Below, one piece after another: positions 6,324 to 25,601 of a stretch of 64,000 nucleotides of DNA. The notes under the pieces were generated by a model, which was given only the letters and a program-made list of their open reading frames with translations, had not been told where the DNA came from and ran no database searches. This DNA comes from an uncultured Rivibacter sp. GTDB taxonomy: Bacteria; Pseudomonadota; Gammaproteobacteria; Burkholderiales; Burkholderiaceae. How positions within the stretch are numbered: the stretch's first letter is position 1; every line of letters begins with the position of its first letter. Position numbers and translations under genes: made by a program. The DNA lies in NCBI GenBank assembly GCA_946480925.1, contig CAMLLU010000026.1, positions 1 to 64,000 of the forward strand, in the 5' to 3' direction.

Positions 6324-7172
6324 CTATTGCAGCTGCTCGCGCAAGAAGGCCAGCAGCCGTTCGCGCGAAGCCACGCGTGCCATCGGGTCGCCGCCCACGT
6401 GCACGCCCTGGCCCGGCGACACGCCGTTGGGCACGTCGCGACGCAGCCGCAGCTTCGCGTCGCTGTCGAAGCCGTGGTAGGCGCCGGCATACACCTCGGC
6501 CTGCACCTTGTCACCGGCGCGGCGCGCGAGTTCCATGCAGGGTTGCGGCGAGGTCCAGTCGTCCTTTTCACCCAGCAGCATCAGCATTGGTGACGCGGGC
6601 TGGTAGCCGCGCTTGAGCTCGGCTGCGCAGCCCGGATAGAAGGCCGCGGCGGCGCGCGGCTTCACGGCAGCCCCCGACACCTCGCGCAGCTTGAGGTTGG
6701 TGGCGGCCAGCACGGTGCTGCCGCCGTTGGACCAGCCCACCAGCGCCAGCCGGCCGGCATCCACGTCGGCCCGGGCCGCCAGCCACCGCAAGGCGCCCAG
6801 CGCATCGAGCCGACGGTTCGCCTGCGTGACGGCGCGCGTGCCGTTCTTCTGCGTGCACAGCTCGCGCTCGCCGCGCGGGCCGAGCGAATCGACCACCAGC
6901 GCATGCCAGCCCTGCACCCGCATCCACGAAGCGTAGTCGGCGAGCCGCTCCGACAGTTCGCCGTTGCGGCCATGCGGGCCGCCGCAGCCGTGCAGCAACA
7001 CCACCGCGGGCCGGCGGCCGGGCTCGTCCACGGGGAACCAATAGCCGGTCAACGGCACCGGCTCGCCGCCTCGCTGTTCGAGGCTGGGCAACTCGACACG
7101 TTGCTGCGCCGTGGCGGCACCGGCCGCGCCGCACAGCGCCACCAGCAGCATGGGAACGCGAAGCCACTTCAT
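6324..7172 (-). CDS. Exported dienelactone hydrolase-family alpha/beta hydrolase
   Basis: A 282-residue protein with a Sec signal (MKWLRVPMLLVALCGAAGAATAQ). The fold shows the oxyanion segment VVLLHGCGGPHGRN, the nucleophile elbow LALVGWSNGGSTV (Ser), the acid in LLGEKDDWTSP and the catalytic His in YAGAYHGFDSD. This complete triad is arranged as in dienelactone hydrolase-like esterases. The substrate cannot be told from sequence. The start at 7172 overlaps the GNAT stop by 4 nt (ATGA). Confidence 0.87.
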   Translation of the reverse strand: MKWLRVPMLLVALCGAAGAATAQQRVELPSLEQRGGEPVPLTGYWFPVDEPGRRPAVVLLHGCGGPHGRNGELSERLADYASWMRVQGWHALVVDSLGPRGERELCTQKNGTRAVTQANRRLDALGALRWLAARADVDAGRLALVGWSNGGSTVLAATNLKLREVSGAAVKPRAAAAFYPGCAAELKRGYQPASPMLMLLGEKDDWTSPQPCMELARRAGDKVQAEVYAGAYHGFDSDAKLRLRRDVPNGVSPGQGVHVGGDPMARVASRERLLAFLREQLQ

Positions 7173-7690
7173 GGAAAGGACGGCGGGTTGGGATGCAGCC
7201 GGGCCATCGCCAGCGCATCGACGAAGCGGCCCGCACGCATGGCATAGGCACGGTGCGTGCCTTCGACCTCGAAGCCGAATTTTCGATACAGCGCAATGGC
7301 AGGCGCGTTGTCGCTGAACACGGTGAGCTCCAGCCGCAGCACCTGCACCCAGTTGTCGGCGTAGTCGCACATCGCCTGCATGAGCGCCGAGCCCACGCCC
7401 TGGTTCTGAGCCTCCTTGGTCACCGAGATGCCGAGCATCATCACGTGGCGGCGCCTCAATTGCGGGCCGGCGGGGTGCAGCCCGCAGGTGCCCACCACTT
7501 CACCGTGACGTTCGGCTACCAGCAGCACGTCGTGCCGGCCGGGCACGCAGGTCTCGGTGAGCCACTGCCGCACACGTTCCTCGTCGGGAAACGGCACCTG
7601 CATCAGGCCCGGAAAGACGTCGGGGGCGGCCACGATGTGGGCCCACGCAACGGCGTCTTTGGGGGATGCGCGGCGAACGGTGATGCTCAT
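7169..7690 (-). CDS. GNAT-family N-acetyltransferase
   Basis: A 173-residue acetyltransferase of the RimI/YhhY type. It starts with ITVRRASPKDAVAWAHI (b1-a1), followed by the acetyl-CoA loop LGISVTKEAQNQGVGSALMQAM (motif A, QNQGVG) and the b5-a4 segment DNAPAIALYRKFGFEVEGTHR. The substrate is unknown. It heads a run with the hydrolase (4-nt overlap) and the HNH gene. Its start codon overlaps the stop of the 38-codon ORF in the upstream conserved cassette (7687-7803), so its translation probably depends on that leader. Confidence 0.92.
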   Translation of the reverse strand: MSITVRRASPKDAVAWAHIVAAPDVFPGLMQVPFPDEERVRQWLTETCVPGRHDVLLVAERHGEVVGTCGLHPAGPQLRRRHVMMLGISVTKEAQNQGVGSALMQAMCDYADNWVQVLRLELTVFSDNAPAIALYRKFGFEVEGTHRAYAMRAGRFVDALAMARLHPNPPSFP

Positions 7691-7803
7691 GGCGACACCC
7701 CGCTCGCCGAGTACGGTGATCGACCCTCCGAGAGGGGCCGGCCTTGCTCGGGGCGCCCCGGCACGGCGGCCCGGGATGTGCAGGTTGACACCGGATGTCT
7801 CAT
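7687..7803 (-). CDS. Leader ORF / conserved 117-nt cassette, copy A
   Basis: A 38-codon ORF starting MRHPVSTCTSRAAV and ending in SPYSASGVSP, with an AAGGAG ribosome binding site about 10 nt upstream. Its TGA overlaps the GNAT ATG (CCATGA). The same cassette occurs at 25105-25221 with 103 of 117 bases identical and no gaps, before an unrelated gene. Near the 3' end two RNA hairpins can form: CCCUC-UCG-GAGGG, and a CACC...GGUG stem enclosing CUC-GGC-GAG. The second covers the GAG/GGGG that would serve as the GNAT ribosome binding site. I read it as a translationally coupled leader or structured regulatory RNA; a mobile repeat is the alternative. Confidence 0.6.
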   Translation of the reverse strand: MRHPVSTCTSRAAVPGRPEQGRPLSEGRSPYSASGVSP

Positions 7804-7911
7804 GAGGGGGCTCTCCTTCTGCCGCAAGACTCTAGCGCTTCAGTCGCTCCAGTCGTTTCACCGTATTTCGTCGATACACACGGGTTCTGCGGCTGTGAAC
7901 TCGCCTGCAGA

Positions 7912-15153: not shown

Positions 15154-16482
15154 TCACCGGTAGCCGTTGTCGAGGGCTGCCTGGTGTGCGTCCCGTTCGG
15201 CTCGCTGTTTCGCCGCCGCTTCCGCGGTAGATTGCATGGGGGCGCTCGCCTCAGGGCTCGCGGGGCGGCGCAGTTCCGGCCTCGGCTCAGGCACGTATCC
15301 GTCGGGCATGGGCTTGTCGTAATCGAAGTGGTTGTCCTTTTCCCACTGGTCGAGGGCGCGCGCAAAGGCCCGCGGGTCGGTGAAGACCTGGCCCTTCGGT
15401 GATGCCGGCTCCGGTGCAGCAGTGGCGGACGCGGCCGTGTTCGACGAAGAAGACTCCTTCCCGGCTGCCGCAGGCTTGGCCTGCGACGCGCTCAACCCCG
15501 GCATCAACGAGAGAAGGTCGGACTGCGACTCGCTCAGGCCCTGCTTGCGGTTCAACAGCATTGCGGCTGGGTCGTCGGCACGCGACACCGGTTGCTGTTG
15601 CACGGGCGACGTTGCGGCCGCGCTCGGAGCAGCCTCCGCGGGCGGTGTCTTGGCACTGCCCGCCTTGTGGCCGCTGCCTCCTCCGTCAGCGGGCTTGCTC
15701 GCCACCTCGCCCAGATCGATGAGCGGCCCGAGAGCCTGCGGTGCGGACCCAGGCAGTTTCGGCGCCGCGGCAGGGGTGGTTGTCGGTGCTGCAGACGGCG
15801 TCTTGGGGCTCTCGAAGTTGTTGTCCTTCACCCACTTGTCGAACGCTGCGCTGAAGCCGGGATCCTGCTCGAGGCGCGACAGGCGTGCCTGTGGCGCAGG
15901 CGCAGACTCAGGCGCTTTGGAAGCCGCGGCCGGGCTGGGCGTTGGAGCGGCGGCAGACGGTGCCTTCGCGCCCTCGAAGTTGTTGTCCTTCACCCACTTG
16001 TCGAACCCGGCGCTGAAACCGGGGTCCTGATCGATCCTTCTCGGCGGCACCTGGCTCGCCGGCTCGAAGGAGAGCGGCCCAGGCATGGGTATCGAGGGCC
16101 GTTCGATGGGCGGCAGCTTCGCTCGCAGGGGAGACAGCGCCGGGTCGGCCGGCTTCGCGCCACCCGATGCACTGCCGTGGCCACCTGCCGCGGGCGTGGC
16201 ATGCGCGCCAAACGTCGCGGCGGCCACCGAAGAGGCAAGGTTCGTGACGGCGGACTTGACGTAGCTGACTGCACTCTGGACGACCGCATCGGACAGCCCG
16301 CTCAGCTTGGCGCTGAGCATCTCGGAGGCATAGCCCGCCATCTTTCCGAGCAGGTTGAGCCCGCTGTCGCCCGTAGGGTGACGAGCCCGCGCACTCGCCT
16401 GCGCCCCACTGGTCGTCGCACTGGGTTTGATCGCCTCGGCACCCAGCAATTGACGCAGGTCGATGCGGCCTGGAATCTTCAC
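15154..16482 (-). CDS. Disordered protein with three copies of a DPxF..FDxWxKDNxF repeat
   Basis: A 442-residue protein of no family I recognise. The GTG start at 16482 is chosen because AAAGGAG precedes it by 6 nt, giving MKIPGRIDLRQLL. Residues about 40-95 form amphipathic helices. Most of the rest is Ala/Pro/Ser-rich and likely disordered. Within it a short motif recurs at about 153-169, 207-223 (near identical) and 369-386 (diverged: DPRAFARALDQWEKDNHF). There is no Sec signal or membrane segment. The composition resembles secreted effectors or adaptor proteins with short linear motifs, but no secretion genes are nearby. It lies 133 nt downstream of the ClsC-like gene. Confidence 0.6.
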   Translation of the reverse strand: MKIPGRIDLRQLLGAEAIKPSATTSGAQASARARHPTGDSGLNLLGKMAGYASEMLSAKLSGLSDAVVQSAVSYVKSAVTNLASSVAAATFGAHATPAAGGHGSASGGAKPADPALSPLRAKLPPIERPSIPMPGPLSFEPASQVPPRRIDQDPGFSAGFDKWVKDNNFEGAKAPSAAAPTPSPAAASKAPESAPAPQARLSRLEQDPGFSAAFDKWVKDNNFESPKTPSAAPTTTPAAAPKLPGSAPQALGPLIDLGEVASKPADGGGSGHKAGSAKTPPAEAAPSAAATSPVQQQPVSRADDPAAMLLNRKQGLSESQSDLLSLMPGLSASQAKPAAAGKESSSSNTAASATAAPEPASPKGQVFTDPRAFARALDQWEKDNHFDYDKPMPDGYVPEPRPELRRPASPEASAPMQSTAEAAAKQRAERDAHQAALDNGYR

Positions 16483-23519: not shown

Positions 23520-25040
<1,521 letters not shown>

Positions 25041-25057
25041 CACCTTGCGACGTGCAG

Positions 25058-25089
25058 GGCACCGGCCGCATTGGCAGCCGGTGCCTTTT
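25058..25089 (+). terminator. Intrinsic terminator after the aldehyde dehydrogenase
   Basis: GGCACCGGC, 10-nt loop, GCCGGTGCC, then TTTT: a perfect 9-bp GC-rich stem with a U tract. It separates the aldehyde dehydrogenase from the DUF779 gene and stands just before cassette copy B. Confidence 0.85.
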
Positions 25090-25104
25090 CATGAAGGAAC
25101 CGGC

Positions 25105-25221
25105 ATGAGACATCCGGTGTCAACCTGTACTTTTCGGGCCGCCGCGCCGGGCCGCCCCAAGCAAGGCCCGGCCCTCCCGGAGGGTCGCTCGCCGTATTCG
25201 GCGAGCGGGGTGTCGTCATGA
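25105..25221 (+). CDS. Leader ORF / conserved 117-nt cassette, copy B
   Basis: A 38-codon ORF (MRHPVSTCTFRAAA...[10 protein letters not shown]) with AAGGA 8 nt upstream; its TGA overlaps the DUF779 ATG (TCATGA). Compared with copy A at 7687-7803, 14 bases differ; 6 codon changes are silent and 7 alter the residue (31/38 identical). The loop of the first hairpin changes from UCG to CCG with the stem kept. In the second hairpin CACC becomes CGCC and CUC becomes UUC, both still pairing by G-U wobble. A 5-codon ORF (25091-25108) overlaps its ATG in the same ATGA way. Confidence 0.6.
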   Translation: MRHPVSTCTFRAAAPGRPKQGPALPEGRSPYSASGVSS

Positions 25222-25601
25222 CCACCGAAGTCCTCCAGGTCACCGCCACCGACGCCGCCCTCGCCCTCATCGAAACCCTGGTGGCCCGCCACGGCCCGGT
25301 GATGTTCCACCAGTCAGGCGGCTGCTGCGACGGCAGCGCGCCGATGTGCTACCCCGACGGCGAGTTCCAGGTGGGCGCGAGCGACCGGCTGCTCGGGCAC
25401 ATCGGCGGCATGCCGTTTTTCATCAGCGCCTCGCAGTTCGAGTACTGGTGTCACACCCAGCTCGTCATCGACGTGGTGCCGGGTCGCGGCGGCATGTTCT
25501 CGCTTGAAGGGCCGCTGGGCCGGCGCTTCCTCACCCGCTCGCGTCTGTATGAAGACGCGGAATGGCAGCAACTGGTGGCCGGCGGGCGGGTGCAGGGTTA
25601 A
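25218..25601 (+). CDS. DUF779 family protein
   Basis: A 127-residue cytoplasmic protein of DUF779, a family regularly found beside ExaC/AcoD-type aldehyde dehydrogenases. Its function is not established. Conserved parts are [22 protein letters not shown] (three Cys, potential metal or redox site), the [24 protein letters not shown] segment, and [10 protein letters not shown]. Its start overlaps the stop of the leader ORF in cassette copy B. A terminator isolates it from the dehydrogenase, so it may have its own control. Confidence 0.87.

Follow-up and report, generated by a model that had tools for sequence, protein, structure and literature searches.

Why does nearly the same 117-nucleotide sequence stand directly before two unrelated genes, one for a GNAT acetyltransferase and one for a DUF779 protein, in the window (the whole 64,000-nucleotide stretch analyzed here)? 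The initial annotation proposed a portable translational switch, in which translation of a short open reading frame (ORF) opens a hairpin over the ribosome binding site of the downstream gene. The question is what kind of element these copies represent, how they arrived at the two start codons, and whether their structure or their reading frame matters to the gene that follows.

A direct alignment of copy 1 with copy 2 gives 103 identities in 117 positions without a gap, whereas the next-best ungapped match to copy 1 within the window reaches only 55/117. This likeness is far beyond chance. Both 38-codon ORFs end, as first described, in a TGA that overlaps the ATG of the next gene, sharing the ATGA at 7690-7687 (copy 1) and at 25218-25221 (copy 2). 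A ribosome binding site precedes each short ORF (Table 1). The earlier count of about equal silent and non-silent changes also agrees with the alignment, in which 13 codons differ, with the residue kept in 6 and changed in 7. The repeat matches no known RNA or protein family; an Rfam scan of the window returned a tRNA alone, and the weak matches at 25040-25300 lie far below the gathering scores. Elsewhere in the window, two 94-nt direct repeats with 84% identity (15779-16034) lie inside a predicted gene (15154-16482, minus strand) and are an internal protein duplication.

Table 1. Features of the two repeat copies and their downstream genes, in window coordinates.
Feature	Positions	Strand
Copy 1: 38-codon ORF, MRHPVSTCTSRAAVPGRPEQGRPLSEGRSPYSASGVSP followed by a stop codon that overlaps the GNAT ATG	7687..7803	-
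113-nt insert lying between two ATGs; the M. rhizosphaerae orthologue (L286) lacks it	7691..7803	-
5' direct repeat CATGAG (copy 1)	7799..7804	-
3' direct repeat CATGAG, holding the GNAT start codon	7686..7691	-
AAGGAG ribosome-binding site: in front of the short ORF here, of the GNAT start where the repeat is missing (L286)	7813..7818	-
Copy 1 structured core (model R1), 80.8 bits; P3 with two mismatches	7689..7777	-
GNAT acetyltransferase gene, downstream of copy 1	7169..7690	-
Copy 2: 38-codon ORF, stop overlapping the DUF779 ATG	25105..25221	+
5' direct repeat CATGA (copy 2)	25104..25108	+
3' direct repeat CATGA, holding the DUF779 start codon	25217..25221	+
AAGGAA ribosome-binding site of the copy 2 short ORF	25094..25099	+
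Copy 2 structured core (model R1), 106.8 bits	25131..25219	+
Hairpin P1 CGGGCC/GGCCCG, near-invariant loop GCCCCAAGCAA (copy 2)	25148..25170	+
Hairpin P2, covarying (copy 2)	25171..25185	+
Hairpin P3 GCTCGCCG/CGGCGAGC, strongest covariation (copy 2)	25187..25206	+
GGGGTG, Shine-Dalgarno-like box for the downstream gene, within the element (copy 2)	25207..25212	+
DUF779 gene, downstream of copy 2	25218..25601	+

A covariance-model search places the window copies in a dispersed family of short repeats in Burkholderia-type bacteria. The model, R1, was built from 58 copies; like alignment A2, it derives mostly from copies picked for a terminal CAT and so leans towards such copies. At E <= 0.001, R1 detects 80 copies in Methylibium rhizosphaerae (the source of L008; genome G001) and 24 and 48 copies in two further genomes; at E <= 1e-4, it detects 33 copies in a single-contig genome of 5.25 Mb (G214). 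M. rhizosphaerae is also the closest relative found for the window, with the two downstream proteins 91% and 88% identical. At E <= 1e-5, R1 has matches in at least 116 of 250 genomes of the family of M. rhizosphaerae, at least 6 of 250 across its order, and at least 2 of 229 across its class. These counts are lower bounds, with 17-22 candidates scored per genome, and G001 served as the positive control in these three surveys only. In the high-GC control, the class of a Nonomuraea genome (Actinomycetes), R1 matched 0 of 197 genomes at the same threshold, with 22 candidates scored per genome under stricter filters; this, too, is a minimum count, and such a negative carries no weight by itself.

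A DNA pattern for the core occurs in at least 120 stretches, and most of the 80 titled ones are from Burkholderiales; in a few matches outside that order (L032, L035, L044, L071, and L073), the pattern is present without the rest of the core. Four viral matches to the pattern proved to be unrelated sequence, and blastn returned no plasmid copies with copy 1 as query and no phage copies with copy 2 as query. A protein search with the 41-residue frame returned 215 proteins at E <= 1. The core RAAAPGRPKQGPTLSEGRSPYSASGV is largely common to the best 120 of them; the N-termini are unrelated in many of those 120 listed proteins, and some are tandem duplicates. At the DNA level, units also form tandem arrays, spaced mostly at 87-93 nt with a few at 70-79 nt or longer, and the GC content of family matches ranges from 0.59 to 0.89. 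One seven-unit array with 87-nt spacing precedes MetW in M. rhizosphaerae (L246:3014-3624), and a single unit precedes a MetW-like gene in another genome (L020). A related Acidovorax-type repeat (L007, L015, L028, L040, and others) has the 5' half in common and a different 3' half (GGGAGCGACACGCAGTGCGCGACCGTGGGGGCC).

Comparison of filled and empty sites shows that the family inserts exactly at the start codon and leaves ATGA at both ends. In the GNAT orthologue of M. rhizosphaerae (L286, 91% protein identity), the same upstream sequence, AAGGAGAGCCC, is followed directly by ATGAGCAT, and in the window two ATGAGs stand 113 nt apart. All 30 GNAT homologues examined, L286 included, lack the repeat (63 matching genomes among 250), which makes gain in the window lineage the simplest reading. 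A gene for a 2-oxoacid oxidoreductase with POR domains gives further pairs. L290 is filled and L291, 97% identical, is empty; L297 is filled and L294, with a short flank much alike, is empty. The ATGA at this gene can also hold the stop codon of the upstream gene. In the gene tree, L290 groups as sister to L291 (support 100/99) and filled rows are scattered among empty ones; the tree is formally compatible with a single origin followed by losses, in which precise loss via the direct repeat could mimic gain.

The same start codons have been occupied more than once. No core lies upstream of DUF779 in 29 of the 30 homologues examined (97 matching genomes), and in M. rhizosphaerae (L155) another subfamily sits at that start. 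Two loci counted as core-less, L162 and L169, do carry a reverse Acidovorax-type-like sequence (CTGCCCCCGAGGGGCCGGCCGC) before DUF779. Across species, different copies use the starts of DUF779 (window and L155) and metW (L246 and L020). The biotin-ligase-like start is also reused (L230, together with L029 by sequence likeness only, among the matches listed). In L303 and L304, the oxidoreductase ATGA holds a related repeat in reverse orientation (R1 scores of 40 and 36.6 bits). This reverse repeat forms a bridging ORF, MTTTPTCALRTAPRGGSASLGAARREAA in L303, which ends in the overlapping TGA. Reverse bridging ORFs suggest that continued translation mattered at that start, not a particular sense-strand RNA. 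The reverse leader of L303 and L304 lies near base 1500 of the gene strand and is a relative of the Acidovorax-type repeat.

The reading frame was analyzed on 219 matches, reduced to 205 by dropping identical contexts; one input was 97 chosen loci without Acidovorax-type and chance-match loci, and L186-L213 entered as best-scoring matches. Leaders, defined by ending in NTGA at a start codon (ATG, GTG, or TTG), make up 87 of the 205 distinct matches. A further 13 end in ATG or GTG without a following A, and the 105 non-leader matches include the inner units of tandem arrays. In the core-frame analysis, 13 of the 205 matches are without the anchor. The terminal frame is open through the core in 86 of the 87 leaders; in 85 the open frame extends upstream of the core to a start codon, ATG in 78. 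Most frames of GC-rich sequence lack stop codons, as the remaining two show here, being open in 86 and 76 of the 87 leaders. An open frame is therefore no evidence by itself, and the phase of the ATG is the telling feature. An in-frame ATG upstream of the core is present in 78/87 leaders and in 42/105 matches without a terminal start. Where an ATG lies within 45 nt of the core, the closest one is in frame in 56/66 leaders and in 24/41 others. The second fraction also exceeds one third, which is unsurprising because inner units of leader arrays belong to that set. This phase holds although the 5' parts are often unrelated. In a second subfamily the frame through the core is shifted, yet the start is kept and the same stop is reached.

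The surroundings of the short ORFs point in the same direction. Gene positions come from our own gene calls and not from an annotation. An ORF with at least 100 codons begins at 75 of the 87 leaders, and 6 others run off the locus, against 466 of 1203 background ATGA tetramers. Among the 58 leaders with an in-frame ATG near the core, 36 overlap the stop codon that closes an upstream ORF of this minimum length, against a background of 225/1203 in which only ATGA was counted, the leaders being counted for ATGA or stop-ATG. A Shine-Dalgarno-like 4-mer precedes the downstream ATG in 77/87 leaders and 33/184 random ATGs. The downstream genes include those for a Mur ligase, RRF, an AccD-like protein, LpxB, MetW, a PBP transpeptidase, TrpC, GshA, and LptG, which are unrelated to one another and share no theme among those named.

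Very probably, the family is a mobile repeat that preserves translational coupling: it inserts on start codons, and its own short ORF hands ribosomes to the gene. The family itself, its exact insertion, the layout of the ORF, the preference for one frame, and the covarying stems are evident from sequence; the handover of ribosomes, the nearly neutral effect on the gene, and transposition are the inferred part. The element would be short and probably non-autonomous, with a core unit of about 87-93 nt; the GNAT copy of the window would be a 113-nt version with an MRHPVST head. Its targets would be ATGA start codons and start/stop overlaps, with ATGA left at both ends. The short ORF would be started by the old ribosome-binding site or by the terminating ribosome of the upstream gene, cross the repeat, and stop at a TGA overlapping the gene's own ATG, which would re-create the ATGA overlap. 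Ribosomes may then reinitiate at this ATG, aided by the Shine-Dalgarno-like box in the 3' end of the repeat. A study of overlapping gene pairs describes strict coupling in 13 of 14 (PMC6728339). With the gene still translated, insertion would be nearly neutral and tolerated, and the family could accumulate, even on housekeeping genes. We infer that it spreads by transposition. The mobilizing enzyme was not found in a search restricted to PF01797: Y1 transposases matched in 3 of 6 host genomes and not in the single-contig genome G214. A Y1 transposase as the general mobilizer is unsupported.

Several observations, the outcome of the enzyme search among them, weigh against this coupling-preserving repeat. 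Covariation of stems is not required of a pure passenger unless mobility needs the stems, and many copies are not leaders. The latter was assessed in the window, in the single-contig genome, and in M. rhizosphaerae (L155 included), which together give 81 places. Leaders account for 36 of these, more than any other class. At another 27, a gene on the opposite strand has its stop codon no more than 6 nt from the 3' end of the repeat, and the remaining 18 fit neither description. Relative to the repeat, the flanking genes lie in the orders (+,+) at 40 places, (-,-) at 16, (+,-) at 15, and (-,+) at 4, with 6 unknown. Some (-,-) places have reverse bridging ORFs, for example L216 and L232, and others of the 17 listed are without one. 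Three loci of the single-contig genome (L240, L243, and L244) show a variant antisense junction, with stop and start one base apart (TGACATG or TGAAATG).

These placements bear on the possibility that the family is a passive repeat of the REP/MITE type, which lands anywhere and survives at ATGA because translation continues. The initial annotation had named scatter without regard to start codons, or stems without covariation, as signs of such a repeat, and the outcome is mixed: the stems do covary, and 45 of the 81 places are not leaders. The 27 stop-codon and 18 other places fit a passive repeat, as do the scarcity of copies between divergent genes (only 4/81), the tandem arrays of 87-93-nt units, and the REP ends that have been described as supplying stop codons (PMC3733652). 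The use of one start codon by several copies, by different subfamilies, and in both orientations suggests instead a target preference. A passive repeat is possible but somewhat doubtful, a judgment that overlaps with that on the coupling-preserving repeat, as the two differ only in the denial of target preference.

The core holds three hairpins, P1 (with its almost invariant loop), P2, and P3. Across P1-P3, 95.2% of cells pair; both sides have changed in 97 cells, the shuffled value being 23.5, and the signal disappears when the partner strands are slid. Most of the covariation is carried by P3, and P2 also covaries strongly. A C-G to A-U double change in P3 separates L009 from L030 and L092, which apparently represent the same insertion. 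A similar difference between L085 and L107 at the oxidoreductase site was left uncounted because the tree sets filled rows apart among empty ones, so the two may be separate insertions. P3 is perfect in window copy 2, and copy 1 is no better than shuffles in folding energy (z -0.96), copy 2 being better (z -3.80). The predicted fold of copy 2 pairs its first with its last bases, CAUGAGACA with UGUCGUCAUG, which is reminiscent of terminal inverted repeats. The most likely reason for the upkeep of the stems is that a folded single strand is needed for mobility, since the orientation is reversible and the named downstream genes share no theme. Separately, at L098:4983 onward and in the second core of L115, both apparently from M. 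rhizosphaerae, the repeat is broken after the first strand of P2 by the same foreign sequence (TTCTATGAGACCCGCTTTGTCAAG...), which may be an insertion sequence with the repeat as its target.

A more elaborate proposal would make the family a second, independent lineage of start-codon-homing elements. Its enzyme would read the folded strand together with a TCATGA-like palindrome, and the element would be domesticated in some genes, with stems tuning reinitiation, hence the re-occupied start codons. This is rather unlikely as a whole.

Less likely still is the switch originally proposed, a regulatory leader whose folding sets downstream expression according to the state of translation. The terminal hairpin on which it was based, pairing CACC/CGCC with GGUG and CUC/UUC with GAG, occupies alignment columns other than those of P1-P3 and is not the fold that is conserved. 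Across the alignment of 58 copies, 75.1% of its cells pair (73.7% in shuffles), with a covariation score of 0.173 (0.144 in shuffles, 2 of 500 as high). Sliding its 3' side by 3 columns raises the score to 0.224. Being only slightly above shuffles and below its own slid version, this hairpin was rejected. The stem differences cited as preserving pairing each alter one strand only: A or G faces U, and C or U faces G. A switch based on pairing of the 5' strand of P2 with the G-rich box that precedes the downstream ATG was rejected as well, as real pairings with a copy's own box average -11.5 against -11.9 with permuted boxes of other copies (149 haplotypes).

Some features do fit a regulatory leader: the covarying stems adjoin the Shine-Dalgarno-like box, different copies have taken the same gene starts across species (DUF779, biotin-ligase-like, and metW), and P3 shows the C-G to A-U double change. 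Against it, the named downstream genes have no common theme, reverse copies bridge too, and window copy 1, with two mismatches in P3 and ordinary folding energy, nonetheless has an intact ORF. From the initial annotation, the portable cassette on the start codons of unrelated genes stands, as does the short ORF ending on the next start; stems that covary across many copies were found. The analysis gave no support for the proposed hairpin, for a P2-based switch, or for regulation. That the short ORF is a functional leader peptide conserved for its amino acid sequence is highly improbable despite the shared protein core, given that mean entropy by codon position (0.55, 0.57, and 0.40 bits in 56 leaders) has no third-position excess, that the N-terminal parts are unrelated between many copies, and that the second subfamily keeps start and stop around a shifted core; translation seems to be kept, and the peptide not.

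The original description of the mycobacterial MIRU elements in 1997 reportedly gave a DTGA target and the sizes of the repeats. MIRUs are described as mycobacterial repeats, apparently mobile, that insert at start codons and carry an ORF coupled to the gene with a spacing of -4 nt, which would spare the gene (PMC12548453). By description, the present family resembles MIRUs in its start-codon insertion and in an internal ORF whose stop overlaps the gene start by 4 nt. It differs in belonging to another phylum, and R1 matched none of the 197 genomes of the Actinomycetes class, with 22 candidates scored per genome. Set beside the MIRU description, it also has three hairpins, two of them covarying, and includes reverse inserts and sites at opposite-strand stop codons. 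By analogy, the same principle may operate in this other phylum, and the gene may depend translationally on the short ORF.

Closer to the present hosts, BRE repeats are reported to be about 75-91 bp long, GC-rich, and tandem with variable copy number in Polaromonas, Acidovorax, Rhodoferax, Delftia, and Bordetella (PMC3110155). In Table 3 of that account they lie between co-directed or convergent genes, and some overlap ORF ends by a few bases; section 14 of that account proposes no function, start-codon insertion, or coupled ORF (PMC3110155). The present family, with its GC-rich tandem units of about 90 nt, may well be related to BRE, as compared by description and not by letters. REP and REPIN sequences are described as dispersed palindromic high-copy repeats whose ends lend stop codons to genes (PMC3733652). 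Unlike these, and their associated RAYT (Y1) systems, the present family has three hairpins and an ORF, and a Y1 transposase is without a match in three of the six hosts. A reading of betaproteobacterial repeats, BRE included, as start-codon-inserting elements with a coupled ORF was not found in the literature searched, which mostly excluded subscription papers.

The family suggests that the MIRU strategy extends beyond mycobacteria and is common in a large betaproteobacterial group. Natural pairs of filled and empty sites make the coupling, and the cost of placing 28-38 codons before housekeeping genes, directly testable. Additionally, many predicted 'hypothetical proteins' about 29-38 residues long may derive from the ORFs of the repeat.
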